From Deltaproteobacteria bacterium (lineage in GTDB: Bacteria; Desulfobacterota; GWC2-55-46; UBA9637), in the NCBI GenBank assembly GCA_016219285.1, contig JACRNJ010000009.1, forward strand, positions 1-49,619: 49,619 nt of DNA, in the 5' to 3' direction. Both the position numbers and the translations under genes were made by a program. Position 1 is the first letter of the stretch. Each line of letters opens with the position of its first letter. Positions 8,301 through 35,346 of the stretch are shown in pieces. Under the pieces are notes generated by a model. The model saw only the letters and a program-made list of their open reading frames with translations. It searched no databases and was not told the origin of the DNA.

Positions 8301-8465
8301 ATGAATGAAATACGCGATGAGAGATATGATGAACTTTGCAAAAGACTCTCGCAGGAAAAGGTTTTTTCTGTTCTGGATAAAAAACAAGGACAGGGAAAAG
8401 GGATAATATTAAAAAACATCTGCCGTATATGCTGGGTAGATATAACACGGCCGGCAGTGGTGTGA
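8301..8465 (+). CDS. 54-residue unknown protein
   Basis: AAAGGAG is correctly spaced before an ATG at 8301. The peptide starts MNEIRDERYDELCKRL and has a Cys pair ICRICW near its end, enough for half of a metal site. It lies 28 bases after the previous gene and 31 before the next. Confidence 0.5.
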   Translation: MNEIRDERYDELCKRLSQEKVFSVLDKKQGQGKGIILKNICRICWVDITRPAVV

Positions 8466-8496
8466 GAGATAAAAATTTAAATGGGGGTTTATTCAA

Positions 8497-8982: not shown

Positions 8983-9031
8983 GGCTTGCGGGCTATGCCG
9001 GGGGTTTATTGCCTGTTTCCCTTTACCTAAT

Positions 9032-9063
9032 GTCCTGCCGGGAACTTACGGCAGGGCATTTTG
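9032..9063 (+). terminator. Terminator-like hairpin before the third Fic gene
   Basis: CCTGCCG (9034-9040) pairs with CGGCAGG (9049-9055); a short gap and TTTTG follow. Confidence 0.5.
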
Positions 9064-9111
9064 CTTTACTTATTACTGGACTTATACTATACTTTCAAGA
9101 AAGGAGGTATT

Positions 9112-15288: not shown

Positions 15289-15795
15289 ATGCAAATAAAT
15301 GTTTCTATTAAAGAGGTCGTAATAAATTCCGGCATTCCTCTTAAAAAGAGAGGGAAAAACCATATCGGGCTTTGTCCATTTCATTCAGAGAAAACCCCGT
15401 CTTTTACCGTAAGTGAGGAAAAGCAGATATTCCGTTGCTTTGGCTGCGGTGAGGGCGGCGATGCAATTAGCTTTTTGATGAAGCTTCACAAAATAACATT
15501 CCGCGAAGCTATGAAATGGCTTGGTCATAACACTTTCACGTTTGTTGAAAGAAAGCCCGACATGAAGAAAGTAATGTTTGAAGCATGGAAGAAGAGTTAC
15601 CTGAACAAGATCTGTTTCTTGATACGTGGAATAAACCGGCTGCTTGTAAGCGGGTTCTTCAAGGGACGTTGGCAGGTAGAAAGGAGTGCGGTCTTGTTTC
15701 ATGCACTCCCTGTTCTTGAATACCACCACGAAATACTCTGCGGCTCCGATGAGGATCTCCAAAAAGAGCTTTATAGAGAAACAGGGGGTTGTTGA
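15289..15795 (+). CDS. CHC2 zinc-finger protein (DnaG-type primase N-terminal domain, stand-alone)
   Basis: 168 residues. Residues about 25-65 are the primase zinc-ribbon: CPFHSEKTPSF, then FRCFGCGEGGDAISFLM, with the CHC2 ligands Cys, His, Cys, Cys. In DnaG this domain reads the template and initiates primers. The RNA polymerase core and TOPRIM domains are absent, so this is a stand-alone CHC2 protein of the kind carried by conjugative and phage elements, or a primase accessory. The C-terminal half (about 95-168) is unrecognised. The TGA overlaps the ATG of the next gene (TGATG). Confidence 0.85.
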   Translation: MQINVSIKEVVINSGIPLKKRGKNHIGLCPFHSEKTPSFTVSEEKQIFRCFGCGEGGDAISFLMKLHKITFREAMKWLGHNTFTFVERKPDMKKVMFEAWKKSYLNKICFLIRGINRLLVSGFFKGRWQVERSAVLFHALPVLEYHHEILCGSDEDLQKELYRETGGC

Positions 15796-16788: not shown

Positions 16789-17649
16789 ATGACAAATAAA
16801 CTTATTATCGGCATTATGGGAAAAGCCGGTTCTGGAAAGGATACGGTCGCGGATTATCTTGTAGAACGGTTCGGTTTTATCAAATTGGCTTTTGCGGATT
16901 CTTTGAAGGAGCAGATAGGCAAAAACCTCTTTGGTTTTAGCGATGAGCAGTTGTATGGCAGCAGCAAAGAGATAACAGATAGCAGATATAAAATGTCTCC
17001 GCGTAAGGTTCTTCAGCTTGCAGGGCCAGCGATGAGGGATATTTATAGCGACATCTGGATTGATCTGTTGATGAAAAAGGTAGCTGCCCATTCTGAGGCC
17101 AACCGCGGTTTTAACAAGTTTGTTGTTTCCGATGTGCGCTTTAAGAATGAGGCGGAGCATATAAAGGGCGCCGGTGGAATACTGTGGGTCATTGAAAGAG
17201 ATGGCGCGGGCGCTGTAAACGGGGTAAAAAATCATATCAGCGAATGGGAAGCTCTGAATTCCTGCAAGCCTGACCTCTTTCTTAGAAACAACAGCACAAA
17301 GAGCGATCTCTTTTCCGTTGTAGATTATGCGGTTGTAGATGTTGCGGTCAATCACCCGGGGTTAAAACCACATGCATGTTGCAAAATATGCCAAGTTGAC
17401 CAGGCTCAGCCGCCACTTGTCCGCAATAATCATCATAATGAGATGATAAACGACCAAGTCAATAGCAATTTGCCGGATCAGTTTTTTGAGTCTATCAGCT
17501 ACTTCGCCGGTCAGCACCTTTCTCCGGTATTTTGGACACCAGACGACGTGGTATTTACAAGAGTAGACAACATTGTTGTTGCTTTTGTATTCCACGACAG
17601 ACAACATTGTTGTTGCTTTTGTATTCCACGACAACATTATACAGCCTGA
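16789..17649 (+). CDS. Deoxynucleoside monophosphate kinase (T4 gp1-like) with an IS605-derived tail
   Basis: P-loop kinase: GIMGKAGSGKDTVADYL at about residues 8-24 is Walker A; SPRKVLQLAGPAMRDIYSDI (about 67-86) and KFVVSDVRFKNEAEHI follow the T4 gp1 layout. Such enzymes phosphorylate dNMPs to dNDPs and feed the reductase/kinase pathway, matching nrdJ and dut nearby. The native reading ends near residue 223; from 17459 the frame runs antisense through an IS605 fragment (PDQFFESISYFAGQ), so the last ~63 residues are foreign. A short in-frame ATG peptide (17371-17445, other frame) starts MHVAKYAKLTRLSRHL and may be a truncated neighbour. AAGGAGAAG site before the ATG. Confidence 0.82.
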   Translation: MTNKLIIGIMGKAGSGKDTVADYLVERFGFIKLAFADSLKEQIGKNLFGFSDEQLYGSSKEITDSRYKMSPRKVLQLAGPAMRDIYSDIWIDLLMKKVAAHSEANRGFNKFVVSDVRFKNEAEHIKGAGGILWVIERDGAGAVNGVKNHISEWEALNSCKPDLFLRNNSTKSDLFSVVDYAVVDVAVNHPGLKPHACCKICQVDQAQPPLVRNNHHNEMINDQVNSNLPDQFFESISYFAGQHLSPVFWTPDDVVFTRVDNIVVAFVFHDRQHCCCFCIPRQHYTA

Positions 17650-17723
17650 ATCAGTATAATGCAAGTCAAAACCGTTGCCTTATATCCCCATAGATGAATC
17701 AAGGGGCTTTACGGCAACCTTTG
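17459..17723 (-). mobile_element. Miniature IS605 derivative: left end and tnpA 5' part
   Basis: Contains the first ~45 codons of tnpA (minus strand) and a complete left end: outer stem GTTGCC/GGCAAC (17674-17679, 17713-17718), inner CCCC/GGGG (17686-17689, 17703-17706), then TTAC on the minus strand. A promoter, TTGCAT (17664-17659) and TATAAT (17641-17636) 17 bases apart, points into tnpA. The inner end begins TCAATAGC, the same as the copy at 23482. It contains a 34-bp tandem duplication (17565-17598, 17599-17632) not present in the other copies. No right end and no tnpB. Confidence 0.7.
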
Positions 17724-17800
17724 GTAATGGAAAAGGTGATTTTTGGATAGGTAGAACTAGAAAGGTTTAGTCTCTCGGCTAAAACTTTCTTTGCAAGAAA

Positions 17801-18152: not shown

Positions 18153-18607
18153 ATGCCAAAAAAGAGTCCTAGTTTCAAATACCAGTTAGTGAAAATGGTG
18201 TGTATAAGGGAAGAATTATTCCCTTATGACAGCCGGATAAAGAATTCAGCTAATGCCGGAAGGATGTTTAAGAGGTTTATAGGGAAAAGTGATAGAGAAG
18301 TGTTTTGTGGGCATACCTGAATGTCCGTAATGACGTGATTGCAGTAAATACTATTGCCGTTGGCTCATTAACCGCTACAGTTGTGCATCCGAGGGAGGTT
18401 TTTAAACCGGCGCTTTTGTGCAATGCAGCCTCTGTTATTGTCGCTCACAATCACCCGTCAGGGAACACAACCCCATCGCCGGAAGATACAATGGCAGCCA
18501 AGAAGTTAAAAAATGCGGCTGAGATACTGGATATACGTCTGCTGGATTTTATTATCATCGGCGATAATGATGAGTATGTATCGCTGATGGATAGGGGAGT
18601 TATATGA
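18153..18607 (+). pseudogene. radC: RadC-like JAB/MPN+ protein, frameshifted
   Basis: The ATG at 18153 gives MPKKSPSFKYQLVKMVCIRE and runs to DREVF, then shifts; the next frame continues WAYLNVRNDVIAV to a TGA at 18607. Adding one T to the run at 18303-18306 joins them as DREVFLWAYLNVRN, standard for the RadC JAB domain. The metal motif AHNHPSG...SPED is intact. Product of about 151 residues, shorter than chromosomal RadC and lacking its HhH domain, as in plasmid/phage forms. RadC is often on mobile DNA; its exact role is unsettled. The defect may be an error in the reads. Confidence 0.8.
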
Positions 18608-18665: not shown

Positions 18666-18829
18666 AGGCAGACCCTCGGCAAGCTCAGGACAGGGGAAAA
18701 CCGCAAACTGAAAATACCTTATTTTTAAGGGATTAAACCCCTGTTAATCTTTTTGGGTTACGGAAGTGTGTTATTTATAAAGTTGAATTTAGAAAAGTAG
18801 ATGTAGATGCAGTTAAGGAGGTGTTTTGT

Positions 18830-21211
18830 GTGAATATGAATATAGATGTACAGCTGACGGAAAATGCAATCAGGGTCCTGGAAAAGAGGTATCTGAAAAA
18901 AGACCTGAACGGAAATCCCGTAGAAACCCCGGAGAGCATGTTCCGGAGGGTGGCTAAGAATATAAGCCAGGCAGAAAGGCTCTATGACCCGGAGGCGGAT
19001 ATTGAAAGGACAGCAGCGGTTTTTTATGAACTGATGACCTCTTTGGAATTTATGCCAAATTCCCCAACCCTTATGAACGCCGGTCGTGATTTGCAGCAGC
19101 TATCCGCCTGTTTTGTTCTTCCGGTAGACGATTCCATGGAAAGCATATTTGAGGCTGTAAAACATACGGCCATTATCCACAAATCAGGCGGCGGCACAGG
19201 TTTTTCATTTTCAAGACTCAGGCCGTCAGGCGATGTGGTGGGTTCAACATCAGGCATATCATCAGGCCCAATATCGTTTATGACAGTATTTGATTCAGCT
19301 ACTGAGGCTATAAAACAAGGGGGCACACGCCGAGGCGCAAATATGGGCATCCTGCGTATAGACCATCCTGATATACTGCATTTTATAACCTGCAAACAAG
19401 ATAACAACAAGCTCAACAATTTTAATATCTCTGTCGCCATTACAGAAGACTTTATGAAGGCTGTGATGGAAGGGGGAGAGTATGAGTTGAAAAACCCGAG
19501 AACAGGGAAGGATGCGGGCAAACTCAATGCAAAAGAGGTCTTTGAAAAGATAGTGAACATGGCATGGAAAAACGGAGATCCCGGGATAATCTTCATAGAC
19601 AGGATAAACAGGGATAATCCAACCCCGCATATAGGAGAGATAGAATCTACAAATCCATGCGGAGAACAGCCGCTTTTGCCTTACGAGTCATGCAACCTCG
19701 GCTCCATAAACCTTGCAAAAATGGTTAGAATCAGAACATCAGAAGTTGAGAAGATGGGAAGTTCTGAACTTCCAAACTTCGGAACTTCTAAACTTCAGAA
19801 GTTTGAAATTGACTGGGATAAGGTTGGGTATGTCGCAAAAGAGGCGGTTCACTTCCTCGACAATGTAATTGACATGAACCGCTATCCCATACAGCAGATA
19901 GAAAAGATGACAAAGGGAAACCGCAAGATCGGCCTCGGCGTAATGGGTTTTGCGGACATGCTTGTAAGGCTCGACATACCGTATGATTCAGATGAGGCGA
20001 TAAAGATGGCTGAAGATGTCATGGGCTTTATCCATGAAAAAGGTAGAGAGGCGTCTCAGGAGCTTGCGGAAAAGAGGGTGGCTTTCCCTAACTTTAAAGG
20101 TTCTATATACGACGGTGGAGCAGAGGTAAGGAATGCTACCGTAACTACCATTGCCACTACCGGCACAATCTCCATAATCTCAAACTGCTCGTCAGGCATA
20201 GAGCCTATATTTGCGCTGGCATATACCAGAAATGTTTTGGACGGCGCCGAGCTCGTTGAGGCAAATCCATTATTTGAGGAAATTGCAAGAGAGCGAGGTT
20301 TCTACAACCCTGAGATATTGAAGCAGATTTCAAAGAGCGGCAGTCTTCATGATGTGGCTGGTGTGCCGGATGATATAAAGAGGTTGTTCGTTACCTCTCA
20401 TGATATTGTCCCGGAGTGGCATTTAAAGATGCAGGCTGCATTCCAGAAGTATACTGACAATGCAGTTTCAAAGACAGTAAACTTTCCAAACGAGGCAATG
20501 CCTGAACATGTGGCAGATGTCTACAGATTGGCATATGAGCTTGACTGCAAGGGCGTTACTGTTTACAGGGACGGCTCAAGAGAGGTACAGGTGTTGAACA
20601 AGGGGCAAAAGAAAGAGTCTGAGAGTCAGAGAGTCAGCGGCAAGAACGATGTTAAAACCGGGGCTGGGAAGATAAGGGAGGTTGAGATAGAAAGGCCGTC
20701 GGCGCTTGAGGGTAAAACCTATAAGGTTAAGACGCCTAACTCAAAGCACGCCCTATATGTAACCCTGACGGATATCCCCGACGGCAATGGCGGCAAAAGG
20801 CCGTTTGAGATATTCCTCAACACCAAAGACCCGTCCCAAATAGAATGGATGATGGCCATAACGCGGCTTATATCCGCCGTGTTCAGAAGGACTGAGAACC
20901 CGTCATTTCTTGTAGAAGAGCTGAAGGCCATATACAGCCCGTCTACGGGTTTTTTCTCTTCAGGCCGCCATAAATTCATCCCGTCTCTTGTAGCGGAGAT
21001 AGGACACGTTATTGATGATCACCTGGGGGGGCTTGGTCTTGTTGAGGAAACTCCTCCTATTGAGGCGTATTTTGAGGATGCCCGGGCGCAGGAACACAAT
21101 AAGGGTAATAAGGACAGCGGCATGGTTTTTTGCCTTGAATGCAGCGAAAGAACACTTATAGTGCAGGAAGGGTGCCGTAAGTGCCTCTCATGCGGCTATA
21201 CAAAATGTTAG
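18830..21211 (+). CDS. nrdJ: Adenosylcobalamin-dependent (class II) ribonucleotide reductase
   Basis: About 793 residues from the GTG at 18830; AAGGAGG at 18815-18821 is best spaced for it, and an ATG two codons later is too far. Conserved parts in order: FMPNSPTLMNAG (about 65), QLSACFVLPVDDS (about 85), SGGGTGFSFSRLRP (about 120), NPCGEQPLLPYESCNLGSIN (about 275) with the catalytic Cys and Glu, TTIATTGTISIIS (about 440), and a C-terminal zinc-type end, CLECSERTLI...CRKCLSCGY. It reduces ribonucleotides to deoxyribonucleotides with B12, without oxygen, and supplies dNTPs with the dNMP kinase and dUTPase here. An insertion-like repeat lies at 19729-19808. Confidence 0.95.
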   Translation: MNMNIDVQLTENAIRVLEKRYLKKDLNGNPVETPESMFRRVAKNISQAERLYDPEADIERTAAVFYELMTSLEFMPNSPTLMNAGRDLQQLSACFVLPVDDSMESIFEAVKHTAIIHKSGGGTGFSFSRLRPSGDVVGSTSGISSGPISFMTVFDSATEAIKQGGTRRGANMGILRIDHPDILHFITCKQDNNKLNNFNISVAITEDFMKAVMEGGEYELKNPRTGKDAGKLNAKEVFEKIVNMAWKNGDPGIIFIDRINRDNPTPHIGEIESTNPCGEQPLLPYESCNLGSINLAKMVRIRTSEVEKMGSSELPNFGTSKLQKFEIDWDKVGYVAKEAVHFLDNVIDMNRYPIQQIEKMTKGNRKIGLGVMGFADMLVRLDIPYDSDEAIKMAEDVMGFIHEKGREASQELAEKRVAFPNFKGSIYDGGAEVRNATVTTIATTGTISIISNCSSGIEPIFALAYTRNVLDGAELVEANPLFEEIARERGFYNPEILKQISKSGSLHDVAGVPDDIKRLFVTSHDIVPEWHLKMQAAFQKYTDNAVSKTVNFPNEAMPEHVADVYRLAYELDCKGVTVYRDGSREVQVLNKGQKKESESQRVSGKNDVKTGAGKIREVEIERPSALEGKTYKVKTPNSKHALYVTLTDIPDGNGGKRPFEIFLNTKDPSQIEWMMAITRLISAVFRRTENPSFLVEELKAIYSPSTGFFSSGRHKFIPSLVAEIGHVIDDHLGGLGLVEETPPIEAYFEDARAQEHNKGNKDSGMVFCLECSERTLIVQEGCRKCLSCGYTKC
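19729..19808. repeat. Palindromic repeat insertion inside nrdJ
   Basis: GGAAGTTCTGAACTTCC (19757-19773) and AAACTTCAGAAGTTT (19790-19804) are near-perfect palindromes, and GAAGTT/AACTTC units repeat throughout. In frame they encode a low-complexity Ser/Glu/Lys loop (TSEVEKMGSSELPNFGTSKL) that breaks up an otherwise standard NrdJ sequence. Confidence 0.6.
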
Positions 21212-21705: not shown

Positions 21706-21966
21706 ATGACAAGAATCAGCAAAGATATGTGGATTTATCCAGACGGAAGGACAATAGTTGTTCAGCCGGGAGAGCAGGTTGCCGGAGCGAAACTCTACTA
21801 CGGCTATGACTATGAAAACCAGTTCTGGGTTGAAAAAAGCGAGCTGGTGCATCATGCCCTATGCGGGAAGTTAACAGATGCGATTGGAAGGGTATGGAAC
21901 GGCCCGTGCAATGCATGTGAATACCTTAAAAATTCTAAAAACAAAGGAGAAAAACCATGTCAGTAA
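21706..21966 (+). CDS. Unknown protein between dut and ssb
   Basis: 86 residues, TCAGGAGG upstream. Aromatic/acidic segment [18 protein letters not shown] and two Cys pairs later ([15 protein letters not shown]). Possibly a small zinc-binding protein. It overlaps the ssb start by ten bases, so its translation is coupled to SSB. No family recognised. Confidence 0.55.
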
Positions 21967-22385
21967 ATAAAGCCATTCTTATAGGCAGACTGGGTAGGGA
22001 CACCGAGATTAAATATACAACAAGCGGAATGGCCATAGCAAACCTCACTATAGCCACCAGCGAAAATTACAAAGATAAAGACGGCCAGAAACAGGAAAAA
22101 ATAGAATGGCACAGGATTGTAGCCTTTGGCAAGCTTGCAGAGATATGCGGCGAATATCTTTCAAAAGGCAAGCAGGTATATGTCGAAGGCCGGATACAGA
22201 CACGAAGTTGGGAAGATAAAGACGGCAGCAAGAAGTATATAACAGAGATTGTCGCAAATAGCATGCAGATGCTTGGTGGAGGTTCGGACAAGGGGAAGGT
22301 GGAAGAGGGGAAGGGGAAAGAAGGTATGCCGGGAGAAGCTGCTCCAAATCCGGCAGCAGTAAAAGATGATGATATTCCTTATTAA
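21957..22385 (+). CDS. ssb: Single-stranded DNA-binding protein
   Basis: 142 residues. The OB-fold starts [20 protein letters not shown], with [28 protein letters not shown] and [15 protein letters not shown] in the usual order (about 1-105). The linker is Gly/Lys/Glu-rich, and the tip is DDDIPY, close to the canonical DDDIPF that recruits repair and replication proteins. AAAGGAG is upstream. It coats single-stranded DNA during replication and should interact with the helicases and SbcCD encoded here. Confidence 0.96.
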
Positions 22386-23185: not shown

Positions 23186-23488
23186 ATGTTCTGTCCAATC
23201 TGTAAAAGTAAAAGGTTAAGAAGATATAGCGGAGAAACAAAATATTATTGCCCTGCATGTAAAAAAGGCTTTAGTATCGTGGATTTTAATATCCCTGTCT
23301 GCTTTAAATGCGGGAAGGCAATAGACGATGCATTGAGGGCGGTAGAGTTGGGAAACGGCAAAACCAAGCACTTAAGGTGCAGAAAGCTGCCGGAGGAAGG
23401 GGAGGACAATATGAGCAAAAGGAAATTTAATATCACAGGGATACTTGCACACAGCACAAAGCCAAAGAAACATACGGGATTTCAATAG
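23186..23488 (+). CDS. Zinc-ribbon protein cut by a miniature IS605 element
   Basis: About 100 residues from the ATG at 23186 (AAGGAGG 9 bases upstream). Two treble-clef-like pairs: CPICKSKR with YYCPACKKGF (about 3-30), and CFKCGKAI with RCRK (about 40-70). An internal ATG at 23411 has its own GGGGAGG site and could start a second, 25-residue product. The reading frame stops two codons into the IS605 fragment (GFQ), so the original C-terminus is unknown. Confidence 0.6.
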   Translation: MFCPICKSKRLRRYSGETKYYCPACKKGFSIVDFNIPVCFKCGKAIDDALRAVELGNGKTKHLRCRKLPEEGEDNMSKRKFNITGILAHSTKPKKHTGFQ

Positions 23489-23700
23489 CAATTTGCCGGA
23501 TCAGTTTTTTGAGTCTATCAGCTACTTCGCCGGTCAGCACCTTTCTCCGGTATTTTGGATACCAGACGACGTGGTATTTACAAGAGTAGACAACATTGTT
23601 GTTGCTTTTGTATTCCACGACAACATTATACAGCCTGAATCAGTATAATGCAAGTCAAAACCGTTGCCTTATATCCCCATAGATGAATCAAGGGGCTTTA
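23482..23700 (-). mobile_element. Second miniature IS605 derivative, left end truncated
   Basis: Same inner end (TCAATAGC at 23482) and same tnpA 5' part and promoter as the copy at 17459, without its 34-bp duplication. The left-end hairpin is present as far as the inner GGGG and CTTTAC, but the outer GGCAAC arm is missing because the sequence joins a dnaN 3' fragment at about 23701. So this copy has lost its outer end, while the 17.5-kb copy keeps it. Confidence 0.7.
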
Positions 23701-23862
23701 CCAATAGGATTTAACGGGAGATACCTACTTGACTTTCTGGGGAGGATAGAGGCGGGAAGGGTAAAGATGATATTCAAATCAAGTGTAACGCCATGCGAGA
23801 TAACACCATTGGAGGAACCAATAAGCTACAGGTATATTGTGATGCCAATGGTAATTAAATAA
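23701..23862 (+). pseudogene. dnaN: Sliding clamp (DnaN) C-terminal remnant
   Basis: In frame from 23701: IGFNGRYLLDFLGRIEAG, then PCEITPLEE and finally YRYIVMPMVIK before TAA at 23860-23862. This is the last ~53 residues of the DNA polymerase III beta clamp, with the characteristic C-terminal VMPM strand where clamp-binding partners dock. The first ~310 residues are missing; the sequence begins at the edge of the IS605 fragment. The replicon therefore once carried its own clamp. The start of a full dnaN is not elsewhere in the window. Confidence 0.75.
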
Positions 23863-23884: not shown

Positions 23885-25234
23885 ATGGAAAACGTCGATC
23901 ACACAACAGGTGTAATAAAGACCCTTGAAAATGGAGGGGCTGAAGAAGTGGAGATGCTGCTTGGCTCTTCATTCCAGTTGAGAAGGAGTGGAGTTATAAG
24001 ACCGGGCATAATGGTTTTAAAAAGCGGGTGTTCTGATAAAGACACCGCTTTGTATAATCATATGGTTAAGGAGGGCGGCCATGACTGGGACGACATAGAA
24101 CGCTCTTTGGGTAATGATAAAAATGGGAAAAGTAAATTGGTCCCCAAAAATGTGGACTATTTTACTATACATCCAAAGGATTGTATAAATCCGGCAGATG
24201 CAGAAACAATCCACCGCCTTTATGCAGCCCCTGACGGAAAACTGCGATCATTCCCCGTATGGTTCCCAGTAAACGAGTGGTGGAATATCATTCCACACAG
24301 CCTACGGTGTTTTGGTTCTGAGCAGGGGCTAAAATATAAGGGTGTTATCAGGGATGGGAGAATGATATGTGAACATCGCTCCCGTGAGACAAAGAATGTA
24401 AAGAGAACATTCCGTAGCGACACATGGGTAGAAAGACCATGCAACCCCGAAGAATGCTCTGAATACCAGTCCGGGGCCTGCAAGTTTGGGGGGGCTATAA
24501 ACTTTTATATACCAGGCATAAAGGGACTTGGAATATGGACAATACCGACAACGTCCATATATAGTTTGATTTCAATTAAGTCTGCACTTGAACTGGTTTT
24601 AAATATGCCAGGGGGAAGGGTGGCCGGTCTGTTTGACGGCAAGCCGATATTTAAAATCAGAAAGGTTCTTGCCACGAGATACAGGCGTGAACCTGATGGG
24701 ACAAAGAAAAGGACACAGCAGTGGGAAATTACCCTTGACAGCGATATTGACCTTGCGGAGATTGCAGCATCACTGGAGACCCCAAGGGCGCTTGCCAGGG
24801 GTGAAAAGGCGGCTGCTCTGTTGGAAGGAAAGAATACACCCGAAAAACCCTCTGATAAATCCGGTGTCGTATTGACGGAGCCGAGAAAGACAGAAATACC
24901 GTCAAAAGCATCACATGCAGAGAAAGAGAAAATGCCGGACATGCAGGCTGGCATAAAAGAGGGCGAAAAAGGCGGCTCCCTGCCTGGGCCGACGGCTATA
25001 GATTCGCAGTCAGACGCGGCAAAAGAACAAAAGGAACCTTGTGTGCCGGGAAGTGTTGAAGCCATCGGCGAACCGCAGAAGAACGCAATAAGAAAGGTCG
25101 CCCTAAAACGAGGCATAGAAAAGGCTGACATAGAAAAGCTGATTACAGGCCTTAATGGACATGATGAGGCAGGCAAATTAATAATGCGGATTCAGAAGGG
25201 AGAACATATAGCTGCGTTGGAAACTTTACGATAA
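23885..25234 (+). CDS. phiC31 gp3/RDF-like protein with zinc cluster
   Basis: 449 residues. The middle part (RPCNPEECSEYQSGACKFGG, about 184-203) followed by INFYIPGIKGLGIWTIPTTS (about 204-223) and IKSALELVLN matches a family I associate with phiC31 gp3 recombination directionality factors and related phage/plasmid proteins. The C-terminal third (about 315-400) is low-complexity Pro/Glu/Lys/Ala and probably unstructured; a short helical end follows (RKVALKRGIEKADIEKLI). GAGGAGGG is upstream. If it were an RDF, it would steer a serine integrase toward excision, but no integrase lies in the window. Alternatively a replication-linked protein. Confidence 0.5.
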   Translation: MENVDHTTGVIKTLENGGAEEVEMLLGSSFQLRRSGVIRPGIMVLKSGCSDKDTALYNHMVKEGGHDWDDIERSLGNDKNGKSKLVPKNVDYFTIHPKDCINPADAETIHRLYAAPDGKLRSFPVWFPVNEWWNIIPHSLRCFGSEQGLKYKGVIRDGRMICEHRSRETKNVKRTFRSDTWVERPCNPEECSEYQSGACKFGGAINFYIPGIKGLGIWTIPTTSIYSLISIKSALELVLNMPGGRVAGLFDGKPIFKIRKVLATRYRREPDGTKKRTQQWEITLDSDIDLAEIAASLETPRALARGEKAAALLEGKNTPEKPSDKSGVVLTEPRKTEIPSKASHAEKEKMPDMQAGIKEGEKGGSLPGPTAIDSQSDAAKEQKEPCVPGSVEAIGEPQKNAIRKVALKRGIEKADIEKLITGLNGHDEAGKLIMRIQKGEHIAALETLR

Positions 25235-25259
25235 GAAGCCTCTTCCGGTTTGGCTTGGG

Positions 25260-25292
25260 AAAGGGCGTGGGAGAAATCCCCCGCCCTTTTTT
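25260..25292 (+). terminator. Terminator after the RDF-like gene
   Basis: AAAGGGCG-GGG pairs with CCC-CGCCCTTT, then TTT. Confidence 0.7.
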
Positions 25293-25319
25293 ATTTATTT
25301 TTAAAGTAAAGGAGAAAAC

Positions 25320-25559
25320 ATGCTTACAACAGAAGAAAAGTGTAAGGAGATAATAAAAGAAATTGTTAGGCGTTGTGGTGATGACAGTGATAGCGGTCAT
25401 CAAGTCTGTTTTTGCTCTGATTGGGGAGGAAACTCACTCACATTACTTTTGAAAGGAGCAGGGCATACACATTGTGGTACGCCCAAATGCACTTTCGATG
25501 AGTTTGTGCACTCTCTTTATTTGTCTTTATATAAACAAACCGGATTATCCGTCAAATAA
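25320..25559 (+). CDS. Small Cys-rich unknown protein
   Basis: 79 residues; AAAGGAG before the ATG. Contains HQVCFCSDWGGNSL and HTHCGTPKC, with His and Cys spaced for a metal site, then a hydrophobic end (FVHSLYLSLYKQ). No family recognised. Confidence 0.5.
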   Translation: MLTTEEKCKEIIKEIVRRCGDDSDSGHQVCFCSDWGGNSLTLLLKGAGHTHCGTPKCTFDEFVHSLYLSLYKQTGLSVK

Positions 25560-25574
25560 AAAAGGAGGTTGACG

Positions 25575-25784
25575 ATGAAAAGAAAATATACTGAGTTTAA
25601 AGAGTTGCTGGAAATTGCCTGCAAGAACGAGGGGAAGTTTATCGAAATAGTCAGGAGGGAAAGCAGCAACATCCCTCTACCTGTAAGGATGTTCATTGCG
25701 GACAAGATACGAAATGCCGTTATGGGGATGGATGAAAAGAGATCCCGAACCATAACAGAGGCGTTAGCCACGGTAGGGATTTAG
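25575..25784 (+). CDS. Small helical unknown protein
   Basis: 69 residues from the ATG at 25575; AAAGGAGG ends seven bases before it, so the upstream TTG is too close. Mostly helical by appearance (EFKELLEIACKNEGKFIEIV, then KIRNAVMGMDEKRSRTI). Unknown function; co-directional with the previous gene. Confidence 0.45.
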   Translation: MKRKYTEFKELLEIACKNEGKFIEIVRRESSNIPLPVRMFIADKIRNAVMGMDEKRSRTITEALATVGI

Positions 25785-25786
25785 GC

Positions 25787-25815
25787 TTGCATTTAAGTAT
25801 AATCCATATTATACT
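25787..25815 (+). promoter_or_regulatory. Promoter for the 25851 ATPase
   Basis: TTGCAT (25787-25792), 17-base spacer, TATACT (25810-25815). The repeated TATA-rich blocks around it (AAGTATAAT, ATTATACT, GATTATACT) might also bind a regulator. Confidence 0.55.
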
Positions 25816-25850
25816 AATGACGATTATACTTTTGAGGTGAGAGGTTTAAG

Positions 25851-27224
25851 ATGAAATTTGTTAATAGAAAAGACGAGCTTGAAAGTCTGTATAGATTTTA
25901 CAAGGGAGAAGGGTTCCAATTTATCCCTGTTTATGGCAGAAGAAGAATTGGAAAGACGCGGCTTATCCAGGAGTTTATAAAGGATAAGCCCGTCATATAC
26001 TTTCTTGCCGATAGTGTGGCGGAAAATGAGCAGTTGAGAAATCTCGGAAGAGAGGTCGGCATTTTCTTTAATGACCCCTTTCTTGCCGAGACAGGATTTA
26101 AGGATTGGTATCAGTTCTTCGATTACCTAAAGAGGCATTGTAAGAAGAGAATGCTTCTTGTAATAGATGAGTTTCCATACCTCGTAAACTCCAATAAAGC
26201 GATTTCCACGATATTCCAGAAAGGAATAGACCAATACCTTAAAGATACCAAAATTTTCCTTATCCTTATGGGTTCAAGCATTGGGATGATGGAAAAAGAG
26301 GTACTCTTCTATAAGGCCCCGCTTTATGGGAGAAGGAGTGGGACATTAGAACTAAGAGAAATGGGATTTGCTTCCCTAAAAGAGTTTTTCCCGAATAAAG
26401 TCACGGATGAGCTGATTTCGATTTACGGTGTAACAGGCGCCATACCGGCCTATCTTGAAAAACTGAATCCAGGAAAAGATATATTCCGGAACGTAGAGGA
26501 ACTTATACTGGACAGGGGAACGTTTCTTTATAATGAGGTGGAATATCTCTTGCGCGAAGAGTTAAGGGAACCGAGGAACTATTTTGTTATTCTCAGGTCT
26601 ATAGCCCAGGGTAAGAGGAAACTGTCAGAGATTATTAACGACACCGGATTCGAAAAGAGCCTCCTTTCACGATACCTTGAAATACTTCAAAGTCTGAGGT
26701 TTATAGAAAAAGAGGTTCCGGTTACAGAAAAATATCCTGAGAAAAGCAAGCTAGGTCTTTATAAATTTCACGACCGTTTCTTTGAATTTTGGTTTAAATA
26801 TGTCTTTCCAAACAGAGGCAGGCTTGAGATCGGAAAAGCTAATGAAGTGTTACGGATGATAAAGGAAACCTTTAAACAGCATCTTTCATTTGTATTTGAG
26901 GATGTCTGCAAGGAACACTGCGTGGAGCTTTTAAGGGATGGTAAAATACGGTTTACTTCTATCGGCAGGTGGTGGCACAAGAATGAGGAGATAGATATTG
27001 TAGCTCTCAATGAGGAAAACAGAGAAATATATTTTGGAGAGGCGAAGTGGAGTAAAAAACCTGTTGGCCTCGATATTATGGAGCATCTCAAGAAAAAGGC
27101 AACCCTTGTGCAGTGGAACACCGGAAAGAGGAAGGAATACTACATGCTTTTTTCAAGGTCAGGCTTTACCGAGTCATTACAAGAAAGGGCAATCAAAGAG
27201 GGGGTCTTATTGATATCCTTGTAG
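25851..27224 (+). CDS. Archaeal-type ATPase (ATPase_2) with C-terminal nuclease-like domain
   Basis: 457 residues. Walker A is YGRRRIGKTRLI (about 29-40) and Walker B is MLLVIDEFPYL (about 101-111). LYGRRSGTLELREMGFASLK is the sensor region typical of the family. The C-terminal part (DUF234, about 310-457) holds EEIDIVALN...EIYFGEAKW, a D...ExK arrangement found in PD-(D/E)xK nucleases. Such proteins are common on mobile elements and in archaea, with roles poorly known. GAGGTGAGAGG precedes the ATG. It has its own promoter and terminator, so it is an independent unit. Confidence 0.85.
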   Translation: MKFVNRKDELESLYRFYKGEGFQFIPVYGRRRIGKTRLIQEFIKDKPVIYFLADSVAENEQLRNLGREVGIFFNDPFLAETGFKDWYQFFDYLKRHCKKRMLLVIDEFPYLVNSNKAISTIFQKGIDQYLKDTKIFLILMGSSIGMMEKEVLFYKAPLYGRRSGTLELREMGFASLKEFFPNKVTDELISIYGVTGAIPAYLEKLNPGKDIFRNVEELILDRGTFLYNEVEYLLREELREPRNYFVILRSIAQGKRKLSEIINDTGFEKSLLSRYLEILQSLRFIEKEVPVTEKYPEKSKLGLYKFHDRFFEFWFKYVFPNRGRLEIGKANEVLRMIKETFKQHLSFVFEDVCKEHCVELLRDGKIRFTSIGRWWHKNEEIDIVALNEENREIYFGEAKWSKKPVGLDIMEHLKKKATLVQWNTGKRKEYYMLFSRSGFTESLQERAIKEGVLLISL

Positions 27225-27277
27225 CAACAACATAGAACTGGTATTGGTATAAGTACCACTATCACATTTGAAAGTTA

Positions 27278-27312
27278 CAAAAAGGCGAGGGATGCTATCC
27301 CCCGCCTTTTTT
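27278..27312 (+). terminator. Terminator before sbcD
   Basis: AAAAAGGCG-GGG pairs with CCC-CGCCTTTTTT. Confidence 0.75.
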
Positions 27313-27341
27313 ATTTTTTAATCTGAAAGGAGGTTAATATT

Positions 27342-28625
27342 TTGAAGATACTACATTGTGCAGACCTGCATTTTGCAAACGATGAAGCTGTCCTGACCGA
27401 TATTGTCAAATGCTGCGGCTATTTATTAAATACGGCTGAAAAAGAAAGGCCTGACATAGCTGTCCTCGCCGGAGACCTGTTTGATGAAAAGGTGTCTTTG
27501 GACAGTCCTGCGGTAAAGAGCGCCGTAGATTTTGTTGTAAATTTGGGCAGTCTGGCGCCTGTGCTGCTCATAAGAGGCACGAACAGCCACGACCACGACA
27601 GCCTGCATATCTTTAAAAACATAGATACTGCTTATCCGATCTATGTTGCAGATTCCATTGAGCAGGTGGCGTGGACATCAGGCGGTTTTAAACCGTTTAT
27701 CCCGGGAGTTGTCGGCGCTGTGGACGGCAAGGATATTATTGCGCTTATATCCTGCCTTCCTTCTGTATCAAAGGCGCATATTCTGGCCGGTATGAGTCTT
27801 GATATAGAAAGCTCAAACCTCCATGCAACAGACCTTTTAAGAGATGTGTTTCAGGCATGGGGGGCGGTTAACAGGGAGATGAGGGCAAAGGGCATTCCGA
27901 CTATTGTGGCCGGGCACGGCAGCCTTACAGGCTCGGAACTGTCAACAGGGCAGCAGCTTGTGGGTAAGGATCTTGAATTCGGCATAAGCGACCTGACTAT
28001 GGCTGATGCGGATATTGTCTGTCTGGGACATATCCATAAGGCGCAGCGCTTTAAGAACATCTATTATGCCGGTTCTATAACAAGGCTGAACTTCGGCGAA
28101 ACAGAGGAGAAGGGGTTCTGGTTGCATGTGATTGGCAGCGAAGTAAGGTCAAGATTTATAACCACGCCTGCCAGGAAGATGGTTACGCTTGATATAACCA
28201 GCCCAGATGACCTGAATTCCATAGACAAGGAGGTTTTAAAAGATTCGCTTGTCAGGGTGCGGTATGAAGTGAATGAAGACGACCTGCATAAAGTGAATGA
28301 TGAAGCCATTAAGACTGCCCTTGAAAAGGAAGGGGCTGTTTCAGTGAAGATAGAGAAGACCGTTGTCGCTAAACAACGGGTCAGGGCCGAAGGCATAAGC
28401 AAGATGCGCGGCCTTGAGGATAAAGTGCGAAAATGGGCTGAAACAGTAGGGGAAACCCTGCCGGAGGGAGTTCTGATAAAAGCGCTGCTTCTGGATAAAG
28501 AACCAGAGGAGATAATCTCTGCAATCAATGATAGCAATTCTTTTGATGCCGAAAAGGTGGAAGCCGCAGGTAATATCAACAACAGGGAGGAGGGGCAGAC
28601 ATGCGACTTATTCGCGCAAAACTAA
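27342..28625 (+). CDS. sbcD: SbcD/Mre11-type nuclease subunit
   Basis: 427 residues from a TTG at 27342 with AAAGGAGG upstream. Phosphoesterase motifs: CADLHF (about 6-11), AGDLFD (about 43), GTNSHD (about 81; the usual GNHD with two residues changed or inserted), AGHGSL (about 188) and LGHIHK (about 226). With SbcC it forms an ATP-driven nuclease that trims hairpins and blocked DNA ends. The C-terminal capping region (about 290-427) is charged and helical. Its 3' end overlaps sbcC by 25 bases. Confidence 0.9.
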   Translation: MKILHCADLHFANDEAVLTDIVKCCGYLLNTAEKERPDIAVLAGDLFDEKVSLDSPAVKSAVDFVVNLGSLAPVLLIRGTNSHDHDSLHIFKNIDTAYPIYVADSIEQVAWTSGGFKPFIPGVVGAVDGKDIIALISCLPSVSKAHILAGMSLDIESSNLHATDLLRDVFQAWGAVNREMRAKGIPTIVAGHGSLTGSELSTGQQLVGKDLEFGISDLTMADADIVCLGHIHKAQRFKNIYYAGSITRLNFGETEEKGFWLHVIGSEVRSRFITTPARKMVTLDITSPDDLNSIDKEVLKDSLVRVRYEVNEDDLHKVNDEAIKTALEKEGAVSVKIEKTVVAKQRVRAEGISKMRGLEDKVRKWAETVGETLPEGVLIKALLLDKEPEEIISAINDSNSFDAEKVEAAGNINNREEGQTCDLFAQN

Positions 28626-30904
28626 AAGGTTTTAAAGGCATCAAGAGGGGAATGGGTCTTGATACCCTCGACATAGACTTTACCAAACTGCCAGCCGGTT
28701 TGATTGCTTTTGTCGGACCAAACGGGAAAGGCAAGACCACCACGTTGGATAACCTTCATCCTTTCCGGGTGTTTCCTTCCAGAACTGGCAGCTCTTTCTA
28801 CGACCTGTGCGAGGGGCCGGACGCCCAAAAGGAGTTAGTATTTGAGCATGGAGGAGTTGTTTATAGGTCTGTTATTCATGTAGATGTGGACCGGAAAAAG
28901 CAGGAGGCTTACCTATATAGACAGGATGGCAGCGAGTGGCTATCTATAAATAAAGATGGCAAAACCACCTCTTATGATGCTGCCATTGAGTCTGTTATGG
29001 GAAGCGAAAAACTCTTTTTCCTTTCGGTTTTCAGAGCACAGAACTCAAAGCCTTTGTCAGCCCATACTAAGGGAGAACTCAAGGAAATATTTGAAGACCT
29101 TTTAGGGCTTGATGAGATAAGGGAAAAGGGAGAAAAGGCCAAAGAGGTCAAAAAACATCTCTTGTCTGTGAGGGACAGGCTGAAAGGCGAGATAGACGGT
29201 TTGTCCGGCATTATTAAAGAAAAGGAAAATAAAGAGAAAAGATTCGGGACAATAAGCGGCGAGATGAGTTCTCTTGATAATGAATGTAAGCTTAAAGAAA
29301 AAGAGTCTGCAGAAACAGACAGCCGTATAGCGGGTATTTCTGCCGGTATAGTAAAGAATGAAGCAGCGCAGGCCGCTATAGCCAGGCTCAAACAAGAGGC
29401 TGCCAGAAATGACACAAAGAAGCAGGCGCTTTTTGCTTCCCGTAAGACCAGGGAGGCGGAGTACGGCAAGAAGATAGACGAGAAGACCAAAAAGCTGGAA
29501 AGGGTTCGTAAAATCGCCGATAACGGGCATGTCATAAGGGAAAAAGTGGAAGAGGAGAAGGGTCTCTCTGCTGCATTAGATGAACTCAAACGGTCTTTAA
29601 CGTCTCTTGACGAGAAGGAAAGGGCGCTCTCCAGCAAGTTTGTTGAGAATGGCAAAAAACTTGATGCCCTGAATATTGCCCGCAAGTATGCCATTGAAAA
29701 GGCAGAAAAGGACATGGAGAGGGCCAAGGCAGAGGCCTTAAAGCTTGAAGGGGTGCCGTGTCTTGAGTCGCCTATGTCGGCAGCCTGTAAGTTTATAAAA
29801 GATGCTGTCCAGGCCAAAGACAGTCTTAAAAGCCTTGAAGAGGCGCTTGCATCCGCAAAGGCAGAAAACCCTGAAATAACCGGTCTTGCAGAAGAGATTG
29901 CCGTGTTGAATGCGGAACTCACCGGTATCAGGGCAGAAATGGGGCTTAAAAAGAAGGAGACTCAGGCGCTTGAAGAAAACATCGCCGGGATCAAAAAGTA
30001 TACGGTATTGCTGTCTGAACTTGAGACCGCAGAAAGTGTCCTGACCGAACTCAACAACGAGTTGGCCGGTCTTACAGATGAGAAAAGCCAGGTGTTGAGG
30101 GAAGTTGAAAAAGAGATTGAAGAAATGGGGAAGACCATACTCTCTCTTCATAAAGAGATAAGCATCGCGGAATTATCTGTTGATGCGTCCCTATCGGCGA
30201 CTCTTATTTCGGCTCAAAAAGAAAAGGCTCAAAAAGCCAAAGAGTTAAACGAACTAAGGGACAGTCTCTCGCGTCTTCATGCGGAATATGGCGCCATAGA
30301 GGAATCGCTAAAAAATATCCGGATTGCAGACGGCAGGATGAAATCTCTTGCGGAAAAGACGGCGGCTATAGATACGGACATAACCGAATGGGCAATCCTT
30401 GAAAAAGCCCTCGGCAGGGATGGTGTGATAGCCCTGGAGATAGATGACGCAGGCCCGGCGATCTCCGGCATAGCCAATGAGCTGCTTGTTTGTTTTGGCA
30501 GTAAATTCGCCGTAAAGATAGAGACTACGAGGCTAAAGAAAGACGGGTCAGGCGACATAATAGAAGTGTTTGATATCAGGGTTATAGATACCGAACAAAA
30601 CGAGGGAAAGAGCCTGCTTGATATGTCAGGAGGCGAGAAGGTCTGGATAGAAGATGCCGTTACTAAGGCCATAGGCCTCTACAACAAGCAGCAGGCCGGC
30701 AGAGAGGCGCTAACCCTCTTTACGGATGAGAAAGACGGCGCACTTGATGCGCAGAAAAAGAAAGAATATCTCCTTATGAAAAGGCGCACTCTGGAATTGG
30801 GCGGTTATGAGAGGGAATTTTTCATAACGCATTCAACCGAACTGCAGGAGATGGCCGATGCAAGGATAGTTTTTGAGGATGGAGGAGTCAGATACGAGAC
30901 TTAA
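28601..30904 (+). CDS. sbcC: SbcC/Rad50-type SMC ATPase subunit
   Basis: 767 residues, the compact phage-like size. Walker A GPNGKGKTTTLD (about 39-50), Q-loop region AQNSKPLS, long coiled-coil arms (about 180-380 and 400-600), hook region PCLESPMSAACKF with Cys separated by eight residues instead of the classic CxxC, signature MSGGEKVW (about 679-686), and Walker B/D-loop TDEKDGALD. It binds DNA and drives SbcD. GGAGGAGGGG within sbcD is its ribosome site, so the two are translationally coupled. The long ORFs antisense to the coiled coils are compositional artefacts. Confidence 0.9.
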   Translation: MRLIRAKLKGFKGIKRGMGLDTLDIDFTKLPAGLIAFVGPNGKGKTTTLDNLHPFRVFPSRTGSSFYDLCEGPDAQKELVFEHGGVVYRSVIHVDVDRKKQEAYLYRQDGSEWLSINKDGKTTSYDAAIESVMGSEKLFFLSVFRAQNSKPLSAHTKGELKEIFEDLLGLDEIREKGEKAKEVKKHLLSVRDRLKGEIDGLSGIIKEKENKEKRFGTISGEMSSLDNECKLKEKESAETDSRIAGISAGIVKNEAAQAAIARLKQEAARNDTKKQALFASRKTREAEYGKKIDEKTKKLERVRKIADNGHVIREKVEEEKGLSAALDELKRSLTSLDEKERALSSKFVENGKKLDALNIARKYAIEKAEKDMERAKAEALKLEGVPCLESPMSAACKFIKDAVQAKDSLKSLEEALASAKAENPEITGLAEEIAVLNAELTGIRAEMGLKKKETQALEENIAGIKKYTVLLSELETAESVLTELNNELAGLTDEKSQVLREVEKEIEEMGKTILSLHKEISIAELSVDASLSATLISAQKEKAQKAKELNELRDSLSRLHAEYGAIEESLKNIRIADGRMKSLAEKTAAIDTDITEWAILEKALGRDGVIALEIDDAGPAISGIANELLVCFGSKFAVKIETTRLKKDGSGDIIEVFDIRVIDTEQNEGKSLLDMSGGEKVWIEDAVTKAIGLYNKQQAGREALTLFTDEKDGALDAQKKKEYLLMKRRTLELGGYEREFFITHSTELQEMADARIVFEDGGVRYET

Positions 30905-30982: not shown

Positions 30983-31420
30983 ATGCAAACAGAAAACCAA
31001 ATATCCCAGATACTGGGAGGTAGAAAATTAACAGGGCACATTCTAAAAGGTCCGATGGATGTTGATCGGCTAATACGTGAAGGTATTCCGTTTAGCGCCG
31101 GGGAACATATAAAGGAAGCTCTGCATCTGACTGATAAGGAATTTGCAAATACATTAGGGATAAGCAAAAGGACATTAAGCAGGTTGAAAAAGTTATCCCA
31201 AAAACTTTCGCCTGTTGCCAGCGACAGACTTTACAGGATAACAAGGATATTGGTATTTGCAAAGAATGTGCTGGGGGGAGAAAGGCAGGCAATGGAATGG
31301 CTGCGCAGGCCGCAAATAGGATTAGACGGGGGAATCCCCCTTAATTTATTAACCACAGACGCCGGTACGAGAGAAGTGGAAGACCTTTTAGGGCGGATTG
31401 AGTATGGTGTCATTTCATGA
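30983..31420 (+). CDS. Xre-type antitoxin of a RES-Xre system (DUF2384)
   Basis: 145 residues, GGAGG upstream. HTH part around KEFANTLGISKRTLSRLKK (about 53-71), then the DUF2384 C-terminal end: VFAKNVLGGERQAMEWLRRP (about 91-110), IGLDGGIPLNLLTTDAGTRE, VEDLLGRIEYG. These antitoxins cap the RES toxin and repress their own promoter; the direct repeats and palindrome upstream fit that. The stop codon overlaps the toxin start (ATGA). Confidence 0.92.
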   Translation: MQTENQISQILGGRKLTGHILKGPMDVDRLIREGIPFSAGEHIKEALHLTDKEFANTLGISKRTLSRLKKLSQKLSPVASDRLYRITRILVFAKNVLGGERQAMEWLRRPQIGLDGGIPLNLLTTDAGTREVEDLLGRIEYGVIS

Positions 31421-31878
31421 TAACGGCATGGCGTCTTATTAAAGAAACTCACATAAAGGATGCATTTACAGGAGAAGGCGCTCGTCTTTACGGTGGCAGA
31501 TGGAATCATCGGGGGATTCCTGCTGTATATATAAGTGAGAGTCTCTCTCTGTCCATACTTGAGCAATTCGTACATCTTGGTTTTGAAGGAAAAGATATAA
31601 GGTTTGCTTATATACAGGTGCATATTCCTCAAAATGTAAGGATAGATAAAGTAAGAGCTCATGTTCTGCCGGCAGATTGGAGAAGCGAGCCAGCGCCTAA
31701 TTCAACAAAAGAGATGGGGTCAGGATGGCTAGAGGCTGCACGCTTTGCCGTGTTAAAGGTGCCGTCTGTAATTGTGCCTGTGGAATATAATTATGTTTTA
31801 AACCCCTCACATCCTGATTTTAAAGAAATTAAAATAAGCAAGTCGGAACCGTATTGCTTAGATCAGAGGATGTGGTAA
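31417..31878 (+). CDS. RES-domain toxin
   Basis: 153 residues. The RES pattern is visible: Arg in GGRWNHRGIPAVYIS (about 25-40), Glu in SESLSLSILEQFVHLG (about 41-56), and Ser in VPSVIVPVEYNYVLNP (about 116-131). Known RES toxins degrade NAD+ and stop growth until the Xre antitoxin restores control. It overlaps the antitoxin gene by four bases. It sits between sbcC and small unknown genes, so it looks like a module inserted into an existing gene row. Confidence 0.92.
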   Translation: MITAWRLIKETHIKDAFTGEGARLYGGRWNHRGIPAVYISESLSLSILEQFVHLGFEGKDIRFAYIQVHIPQNVRIDKVRAHVLPADWRSEPAPNSTKEMGSGWLEAARFAVLKVPSVIVPVEYNYVLNPSHPDFKEIKISKSEPYCLDQRMW

Positions 31879-32822: not shown

Positions 32823-33203
32823 ATGTCTCATATAGCATCATATGATACTCAAATAACCAATGTAGACCAGCCGCTTTTGCTGCAAGTGATGAATTACGCT
32901 GCCGGTCTTTTAGGCGGCAAGGTTACAGACAGAGTTTCTGAATACAATAACAGGGCGGACAAAAAGGTCCTTGCGGCCATCACGACCCCAAAATTAAAAA
33001 GCGGTATAGGGGTAGAGATAATAAACGGGAAGCTCATGTTTGTCGGCGACAATTACGGCAAGCAGGAGGAGTTTAACAGAGTCAAGAACAAGATACTTGA
33101 CACCTACTACGGCAGCGCCCTGGCGAAAACCCTGCCCTCTATGGGGTTTAAGGTCGCAGTAAAGGACACAGGTCAGGTTGTTACAATAGAGGCATCAAGA
33201 TAG
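32823..33203 (+). CDS. Ycf35/DUF1257-like protein
   Basis: 126 residues. MSHIASYDTQITNVD at the start, the centre GIGVEIINGKLMFVGDNYGK and the end FKVAVKDTGQVVTIEA match the DUF1257/Ycf35 shape. In many bacteria and plastids this family sits next to DUF2997 and a Ycf46-type AAA ATPase, as here. Its activity is unknown. Ribosome site AAAGGAG. Confidence 0.65.
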   Translation: MSHIASYDTQITNVDQPLLLQVMNYAAGLLGGKVTDRVSEYNNRADKKVLAAITTPKLKSGIGVEIINGKLMFVGDNYGKQEEFNRVKNKILDTYYGSALAKTLPSMGFKVAVKDTGQVVTIEASR

Positions 33204-33230
33204 ATAAAAATAATAAAAAGGGGGCGCAAA

Positions 33231-33443
33231 ATGACAAAACCAAAAATATTGATTGAGATAGACAAGGGTATGTTGGCCTCTGTCACCTCAACCTGTGATG
33301 CGGTCATCTATATAATAGACCGTGATGTTAGAGACAATGCAGAGCGCGCAGATGACGTTGATATTTATCAATCAGGCCGCATAGTTGATGAGGAAGAGTT
33401 CATAAAAATAATGGGGAAGGCTATGAAGGAGGCCCGAAGATGA
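33231..33443 (+). CDS. Small acidic unknown protein of the Ycf-like block
   Basis: 70 residues; AAAAGGGGG upstream. KILIEIDKGMLASVTSTCDA at the N-terminus, then an acidic helix (RADDVDIYQSGRIVDEEEF). It overlaps the next gene by four bases, so it belongs to the same operon. No family recognised. Confidence 0.5.
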   Translation: MTKPKILIEIDKGMLASVTSTCDAVIYIIDRDVRDNAERADDVDIYQSGRIVDEEEFIKIMGKAMKEARR

Positions 33444-33646
33444 AAAGGATTATTTTTACTATAAAAGACGGCAAAATAAATACCAGTCTGAATGGGTTTC
33501 ATGGGAGCGACTGTATTGTTGAGGCGCAGAGGATTATAGAAGCCCTCAGCAAGGCAGGAATTGCCCTTGATTGTAAAGAACTGGTACGAAAGGACAACTA
33601 TGAAAAAGAGACAGTCAAGGCTTGTGAAAAAGACACAACAAACTGA
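33440..33646 (+). CDS. DUF2997-like small protein
   Basis: 68 residues. MKRIIFTIKDGKINTSLNGF followed by CIVEAQRIIEAL matches the beta-beta-beta-alpha layout of DUF2997, where the strands read like MKxIxIxIxxDGxVxxxVxG. This family is a steady neighbour of DUF1257 and the AAA ATPase. It overlaps the genes before and after. Confidence 0.6.
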   Translation: MKRIIFTIKDGKINTSLNGFHGSDCIVEAQRIIEALSKAGIALDCKELVRKDNYEKETVKACEKDTTN

Positions 33647-33791
33647 ATTTATTGAGGTCTTTGTGTCAAACCAAAATATACTTGTTAAGGCGCACACCCC
33701 TCATGGAGGCGAATTCCTTGAGAAATTAAAAAACAGACTTAAAAACTGCGGGATTCAGGTTTCTCCGCAGTTTGAAAGTCTGTGCGGATAA
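33600..33791 (+). CDS. Small unknown protein overlapping the DUF2997-like gene
   Basis: 63 residues from the ATG at 33600 (AAAGGAC before it). Basic start KKRQSRLVKKTQQTEF, then IEVFVSNQNILVKAHTPHGG and a helix (EFLEKLKNRLKNCGI). Possibly also a small alpha/beta partner of the ATPase. Overlaps the preceding gene by 47 bases. Confidence 0.45.
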   Translation: MKKRQSRLVKKTQQTEFIEVFVSNQNILVKAHTPHGGEFLEKLKNRLKNCGIQVSPQFESLCG

Positions 33792-33805
33792 TAGGAGGAT
33801 AAAAA

Positions 33806-35346
33806 ATGCAAAAACCGGAATGCATAGAAAGGTTTAAAGACATGTATGAGGCGTCCATAGCCCATACGTTTCTCTTCCACGGGGCTACGTATGATTATGT
33901 GGAAGAGTTTAATACATTAAAACCATATCTCTCCTCTTTGCTAACGGCTGCGGGCAAAGAGGTTGTTTATTATAACAGGTCGGAAGGCATAACATTCTGC
34001 ACTGAAAAGGGACGCCAGTTGTTTATGAGCGCAGTTGCTCCCAGCGCTGTCGCATTTCCAGGCATGAGCGGGACTCAGTCCCCTCTGCCCAAGGAGCCTG
34101 TGGCTGCCCTGGAACTTCTTGAGGCGGCGCTCAAGAAGAACCCAAAAGAGGCTGCCCCTGATGATGCGGTTTTCAGGGGGTTCAGTGTCGTTATTGAATA
34201 TGCCGATACTATATTTCCTCCGGGGGACAGTCTCGGCGGAGAGGATAGAACAGCCCTTGTTACGATTCTCAGGTGGGCCAAAGATCCTGTCATAGCCGGC
34301 CTGGGCAATATGGTAATCATGGTGGCATCGGCAAAGAACAGGGTTTCGGCGCCCATTCTGGAGGCCAGCTCCAGAATAGAGCCTATAGCCGTTTCACTGC
34401 CTTCCAGACAGGACAGAGAGAAATTCCTGAAGGCCGCCAAAGGCAAGTATAGCTACAAACTGGAAAAAGGATTTTCAGACGGCGAGTTTGCCAATCTTAC
34501 TGCAGGGCTCGGCAGGATACATGTTGTGGATATTATCATGAGGGCCAAAAAGGACGGGGCTCCTATAGACAAAGACCTTATCAAGAGAAGGAAAGATGAG
34601 ATAGTCTTGTCTGAATACGGCAATGTCCTGCAGATAAGGACTCCTGAGTGGGGGTATGAGGCTATAGGCGGGATGGAATATCTTAAAGACTTTATGCGGA
34701 AGTCAGTTATAAAACCCCTTATGGATGGCAATTCAAAAAGAACTCCTTTGGGGATATTGATGTGCGGGCGCCTGGCACAGGGAAGACTGCTCTGGCAGAA
34801 GCGACTGCAAAAGAGGCCTCTGTAAACTTTGTCATCCTCAATATGGCGCGCATTTTTGACAAATACGTGGGGGCCACAGAAAGAAACCTTGAAAGGGCGT
34901 TTGAGGCCATTGAGTCTTTGCACCCCACTATTTGCCTTTTAGATGAAATTGACCAAGCCATGTCCAGAGGAGGCGGCGGAGACTCCGGGGTGTCAAGCAG
35001 GGTCTTTAAAAGGTTTCTTGAATTCTCATCAGATACTACCCATAGGGGAAAGGTCGTTTTTCTGGGCGCTACGAACAGGCCCGACACTATTGACCCGGCC
35101 ATGAAAAGGTTCGGGCGGTTTGATAAAAAGATAGCCTTTATGCCGCCTGCGCCGGAAGAACGGGCTATGATTCTAAAGGCCGTTGCCGAAAACAAACTTG
35201 GCATAGAATCAAGGCTTTCAGATGAGGATTATAAAGAGGCGGCCCGTCTGACGGATAAATGGGTCGGGTCTGACCTTGAGGGGGCTATTATAAAAGCGTA
35301 TGAAGCGGCAGAGGATAACGGGAGAGTGCGACTTGAAGTTGAATAA
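33806..35346 (+). CDS. Ycf46-like AAA+ ATPase, frameshifted in the Walker A region
   Basis: The first frame (33806-34825) carries the N-terminal ~310 residues: SIAHTFLFHGATYDYVEEF, then FRGFSVVIEYADTIFPPGD and GNMVIMVASAKNRVS, the degenerate first half of Ycf46-type proteins. It loses frame in the P-loop. Adding one G to the run at 34766-34768 yields LMCGAPGTGKTALAEATAKE, and the second frame (34762-35346) gives Walker B TICLLDEIDQAM, sensor 1 VVFLGATNRPD and Arg fingers KRFGRFDKK. AGGAGGA precedes the start. Likely the motor of the Ycf35/DUF2997 set. C-terminal coding continues past a TAA at 35344 and a group II intron. Confidence 0.75.

Follow-up and report, generated by a model that had tools for sequence, protein, structure and literature searches.

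We found that the 59-aa ORF at 23683-23862(+) of the window, which is the whole of contig C3 (49,619 bp) in an 84-contig assembly of a genome rated 99% complete, is by its sequence a remnant of a beta sliding clamp (DnaN) gene and not a member gene of that family. It is joined to the damaged left end of an IS605-type insertion sequence. That the element in the window once had a complete clamp gene is well supported, and the piece, about the final seventh of such a gene, appears to be what remains of an accessory gene that was lost, and not a small gene that still works. The event behind it was probably a deletion ending in the left end of the insertion sequence (IS), which cut a complete accessory dnaN lying in an operon with the adjoining RDF-like gene. 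The features that bear on this reading are as follows.

About 2172-4107, minus strand: IS605-type copy in which tnpA (3695-4087) and tnpB (2187-3698) are complete; it has the right-end hairpin and the left tip but lacks the core of the left-end hairpin.
17459-17727, minus strand: second truncated IS605-type copy, with the same inner boundary as the piece at 23482, the left tip and a 34-bp tandem duplication.
18821-21211, plus strand: ribonucleotide reductase (RNR) large subunit gene, same block.
21957-22385, plus strand: SSB gene, same block.
23411-23488, plus strand: gene start MSKRKFNITGILAHSTKPKKHTGF that has a good ribosome-binding site and is truncated at the IS piece.
23482-23701, minus strand: truncated IS605-type copy consisting of a damaged left end and the first ~45 tnpA codons, without right end or left tip.
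23683-23701, plus strand: DNA of the IS left end, in which the 59-aa ORF has its ATG and first codons; the copy at 17459-17712 has the identical sequence.
23702-23862, plus strand: dnaN remnant, the last ~52 codons and stop of a beta clamp, identified by its PF02768 match and by alignment with complete clamps.
23885-25234, plus strand: RDF-like gene (Gp3-like, PF18897), starting 22 nt after the dnaN stop.
27342-30904, plus strand: Mre11-like and Rad50-like genes, a core shared with relatives.

The 59-aa ORF, MNQGALPIGFNGRYLLDFLGRIEAGRVKMIFKSSVTPCEITPLEEPISYRYIVMPMVIK, matched PF02768 (DNA_pol3_beta_3) with an E-value of 3.3e-8 and 33.8 bits against a curated cut-off of 27, and did so again in a whole-genome scan (E 2.4e-7). 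The match runs from position 70 to position 120 of the 121 in the profile, which corresponds to the C-terminal half of beta-clamp domain 3, and the YIVMPM motif is kept near the end; homology to the C-terminal domain of DnaN is thus present, and the three complete clamp domains are absent. The first seven codons (MNQGALP) are IS605 left-end hairpin DNA, clamp sequence begins only at about 23702, and no ribosome-binding site precedes the ATG. Since the dnaN tail lacks its own start signal and retains only half of one clamp domain, it is predicted to be non-functional. Genome-wide, the N-terminal clamp domain (PF00712) was found only in the chromosomal dnaN; the window holds no further clamp pieces, and the 5' part of a dnaN occurs nowhere in window or genome besides the chromosomal gene. 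The first-pass annotation had read the end of a clamp gene beside an IS605, and both its coordinates and its reading hold, with ~52 clamp residues where it gave ~53.

The junction lies at 23701/23702 and is seen directly in the assembly, so the earlier claim that the clamp end abuts an IS605 edge is borne out there, the edge being a broken left end. A DNA similarity search located three IS605-type stretches with this sequence on the contig and no other in the genome. Y1 transposase (PF01797) is recognized in the complete copy (E 2.4e-45) and in both fragments; in the piece next to dnaN, 23481-23591(-) matches positions 2-38 of the 121 in the Y1_Tnp profile. Within this piece, 23482-23622 shares 99% identity with the 5' part of the complete copy's tnpA, and 23482-23701 also matches the truncated copy at 17459-17712. 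The two short copies have their inner boundary in common, ending, to within one base, at the same point of tnpA (GCTATTGA), and differ in their outer boundary. The copy at 17459-17727 overlaps the 3' end of a dNMP-kinase ORF (16789-17649). Outside this genome, a search of a phage collection for close DNA relatives returned only a 75-bp tnpA match in Helicobacter phages, and the exact IS left end and tnpA start had no match among viral contigs.

Comparison of the three left ends indicates what has been lost beside dnaN. The outer tip TTAC|CAAAGGTTGCCG is common to the copy at 17459 and the complete copy; since the flanks of these copies differ, the shared tip is part of the left end and its target. 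At 17459 the left end forms an extended hairpin, GTTGCC...GGCAAC (z -3.2). The TTAC-type left flank, guide and hairpin are therefore recognizable as a tip in two copies and as a hairpin in the 17459 copy, and the fragment at 23482 does not conform, its tip being missing. This fragment lacks both the left tip TTACCAAAGGTTGCCG and one arm of the GTTGCC...GGCAAC stem, and dnaN sequence starts exactly at that point. No right-end hairpin was found at its inner edge. With no right end and a lost left tip, the IS piece is a broken fragment, and an intact miniature (MITE-like) element at 23482-23701 was rejected on the same grounds; of the "miniature IS605" proposed at first, the IS605 piece stands and the miniature element does not.

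We place a deletion at the joint because the ORF begins with codons of IS left-end DNA and because precisely there the tip present in both other copies is lacking. A simple insertion inside dnaN was rejected, as the sequence to the left of the IS has no clamp homology. The ancestor would have carried a complete accessory dnaN followed, in the same operon, by the RDF-like gene; the operon is suggested by the 22 nt between the dnaN stop and the RDF-like start codon and by the ribosome-binding site lying between them. A truncated IS605-type copy would already have been present upstream of dnaN, and one deletion, presumably a single event, would have stretched from inside the hairpin of the IS left end as far as about codon 313 of dnaN. 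It would have removed the IS tip together with about 0.9 kb of dnaN and left the 52-codon tail. Such elements would rely on the clamp loader of the host to load their clamp and on host polymerase III to work with it, and the window's element would now depend on the host clamp.

Three damaged IS stretches in one short-read contig make misassembly possible, and the main rival to the deletion is that short reads were misjoined within the three near-identical IS605-type stretches, the real dnaN being complete and its 5' part missing from the bin. In keeping with this, all the odd joints (the missing left tip, the missing hairpin core and the 34-bp duplication) fall within the repeated stretch, and the contig is linear, with ends that do not overlap. 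Against it, the two short IS copies have different unique flanks on both sides, and the remainder of dnaN is absent from all other sequence of a genome that is rated 99% complete, though the element itself could be incomplete. We regard such an artefact as unlikely, and the deletion remains our preferred account.

As the first-pass annotation had proposed, dnaN was searched for outside the window, and the host was seen to have one complete gene of its own (C69:27346-28443(-)), flanked by an ORF named dnaA-like from its sequence and by an ssb. Aligned over 51 residues, remnant and host clamp are 35% identical, and at this identity the remnant is not a recent copy of the host gene; derivation from this host's dnaN was rejected.

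The other comparison proposed was with related elements, which we found via the RDF-like protein and the Rad50-like protein. Complete clamp genes were seen directly in three of them, at other spots than in the window. The first, G352:C5, comes from the window's class and has in common with the window Mre11, Rad50, a zinc-ribbon ORF, the RDF-like gene, RNR and SSB; its dnaN (125617-126705, minus strand, 362 aa) lies 3.4 kb upstream of the RDF-like gene and on the same strand as that gene. G352:C5 also has F-type conjugation genes (TraC, TraN and the C-terminal domain of TraG/TraD), and a Toprim primase-like gene directly follows its RDF-like gene. The second, G001:C92 (83,834 bp, Nitrospiraceae MAG UBA665), has RNR, SSB, Mre11, Rad50, the RDF-like gene and other genes in common with the window; its dnaN (32959-34071, 370 aa) lies between a dUTPase-like ORF and RNR, near SSB and about 13 kb from the RDF-like gene. 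The third, the 51.7-kb IMG/VR contig L072, combines RDF-like, Mre11 and Rad50 genes with a complete dnaN of 360 aa. The RDF-like/Mre11/Rad50 core genes lie close together in the window (23885-30904) and likewise in relatives, where dnaN does not directly adjoin the RDF-like gene. The earlier proposal that the element once encoded its own clamp is thereby supported as probable. The RDF-like protein had no match in the phage collection, was found only in the window among eight genomes of the same family, and gave no match in single-sequence scans of viral contigs, nor did the C92 clamp in the same scans.

These relatives are distant. None exceeds about 50% protein identity to the window's element, so the exact ancestral locus has not been seen. 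The remnant is only 23-35% identical to all clamps compared, which counts against the deletion history inasmuch as the clamps may be independent acquisitions. The clamp piece might have come in as a fragment, for example by recombination with another replicon's DNA, into an element that never had a complete clamp gene; the remnant's distance from every clamp compared and the presence of dnaN in only 3 of the 16 related records fit this idea. However, the piece has the right orientation and sits 22 nt before the RDF-like gene like an operon partner, and the same-class relative G352:C5 has dnaN upstream of its RDF-like gene. We therefore consider an imported fragment improbable, and less credible than a misassembly. 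That the ORF is a real small gene for a clamp-like peptide is very improbable: its frame is open and the VMPM motif is kept, but it has no ribosome-binding site, its start codon lies inside the IS left-end hairpin, it spans only half of one clamp domain, and no related record with just the short ORF, which would have spoken for a small gene, was seen.

The clamp looks, from its distribution, like an accessory gene in these elements, because only 3 of the 16 related records have dnaN on the same contig; the 13 without it (G297:C216, also known as L005; L004; L028; L029; and nine of ten further ones) include many fragments, in which absence is weak evidence. Pfam tallies of the window and of C92, which has a complete clamp, contained no DNA polymerase family among the 25 families listed for ORFs above a size limit. 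The suggested switch from own to host replication machinery thus finds no backing, given these tallies and the 13 of 16 records without dnaN. Among large phages in general it is not unusual to encode a clamp: jumbo phages having PCNA-type clamps together with loaders are on record (PMC7824862).

Between the C92 clamp and the dnaN on the chromosome of the same bin, identity is 81%, and 92% over the C-terminal part, with DNA identity of 88-95%; that chromosomal gene lies on C33 (15564-16972) and adjoins dnaA-like and gyrase-like ORFs. Judging by these identities, the source of the C92 element's clamp was its host or a close relative, and a mobile element has here recently captured a core replication gene. 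Identity between the G352:C5 clamp and the dnaN of its host is only 34%, and the C92 clamp is host-like; the element clamps therefore look like separate acquisitions. The SSB in the window (21957-22385) is 85% identical over 105 aa to the host chromosomal SSB, which adjoins the host dnaN, and by this similarity SSB was also taken up by the window's element. It is possible, though we hold the idea tentatively, that conjugative or virus-like elements with an RDF-like/Mre11/Rad50 core repeatedly gain a clamp without a polymerase, once from a host chromosome like the element's own, and later lose it; such a clamp would bring polymerase and repair enzymes of the host to the element's DNA.

Several other features of the window were recorded. 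No homologue of the gene start at 23411-23488 was found in relatives. The 168-aa ORF at 15289-15795 has only the zinc-ribbon domain of a DnaG-type primase, and a RadC-like ORF (18305-18607) is 100 aa long, whereas its relative in G001:C92 has 223 aa. A group II intron occupies 35383-37648, with its reverse transcriptase ORF at 35894-37564, and a similar intron lies just after the RDF-like gene in G001:C92. Three Fic-domain proteins, one with a DUF4172 N-terminus, are encoded within 6 kb (4376-10116), an Xre-RES toxin-antitoxin-like pair lies at 30983-31878, and a gene for a TdeIII-type restriction endonuclease stands beside one for an HNH protein at 38478-39963.

Gene decay next to a broken insertion sequence is ordinary in kind. 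The case has comparative value, as the clamp occurs in only some family members and without a polymerase among the 25 families listed; whether a stand-alone clamp helps an element to use the host replisome, and is dispensable, is testable in this family.

Among known insertion sequences, IS608 integrates 3' to TTAC with a preference for C at +1, and its AAAG guide lies 5' of the left hairpin (PMC5934647). The IS on the contig resembles IS200/IS605 elements with an IS608-like left end in its Y1 TnpA and TnpB, in TTAC followed by C, and in AAAG 5' to a subterminal hairpin (PMC5934647); it differs in that tnpA and tnpB lie on one strand, the left end or its vicinity is damaged in every copy, and the right end is absent from two. 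Compared with bacterial DnaN (PF00712, PF02767, PF02768), the remnant retains the C-terminal half of domain 3 with the closing VMPM motif, whereas domains 1, 2 and half of domain 3 are gone, as is any start signal. The clamp genes of G352:C5 and G001:C92 differ from the remnant in being complete, in lying 3.4 kb and about 13 kb from the RDF-like gene, and in sequence (23-31% identical), but both elements share with the window the block of RDF-like, Mre11, Rad50, RNR and SSB genes with dnaN on the same contig.
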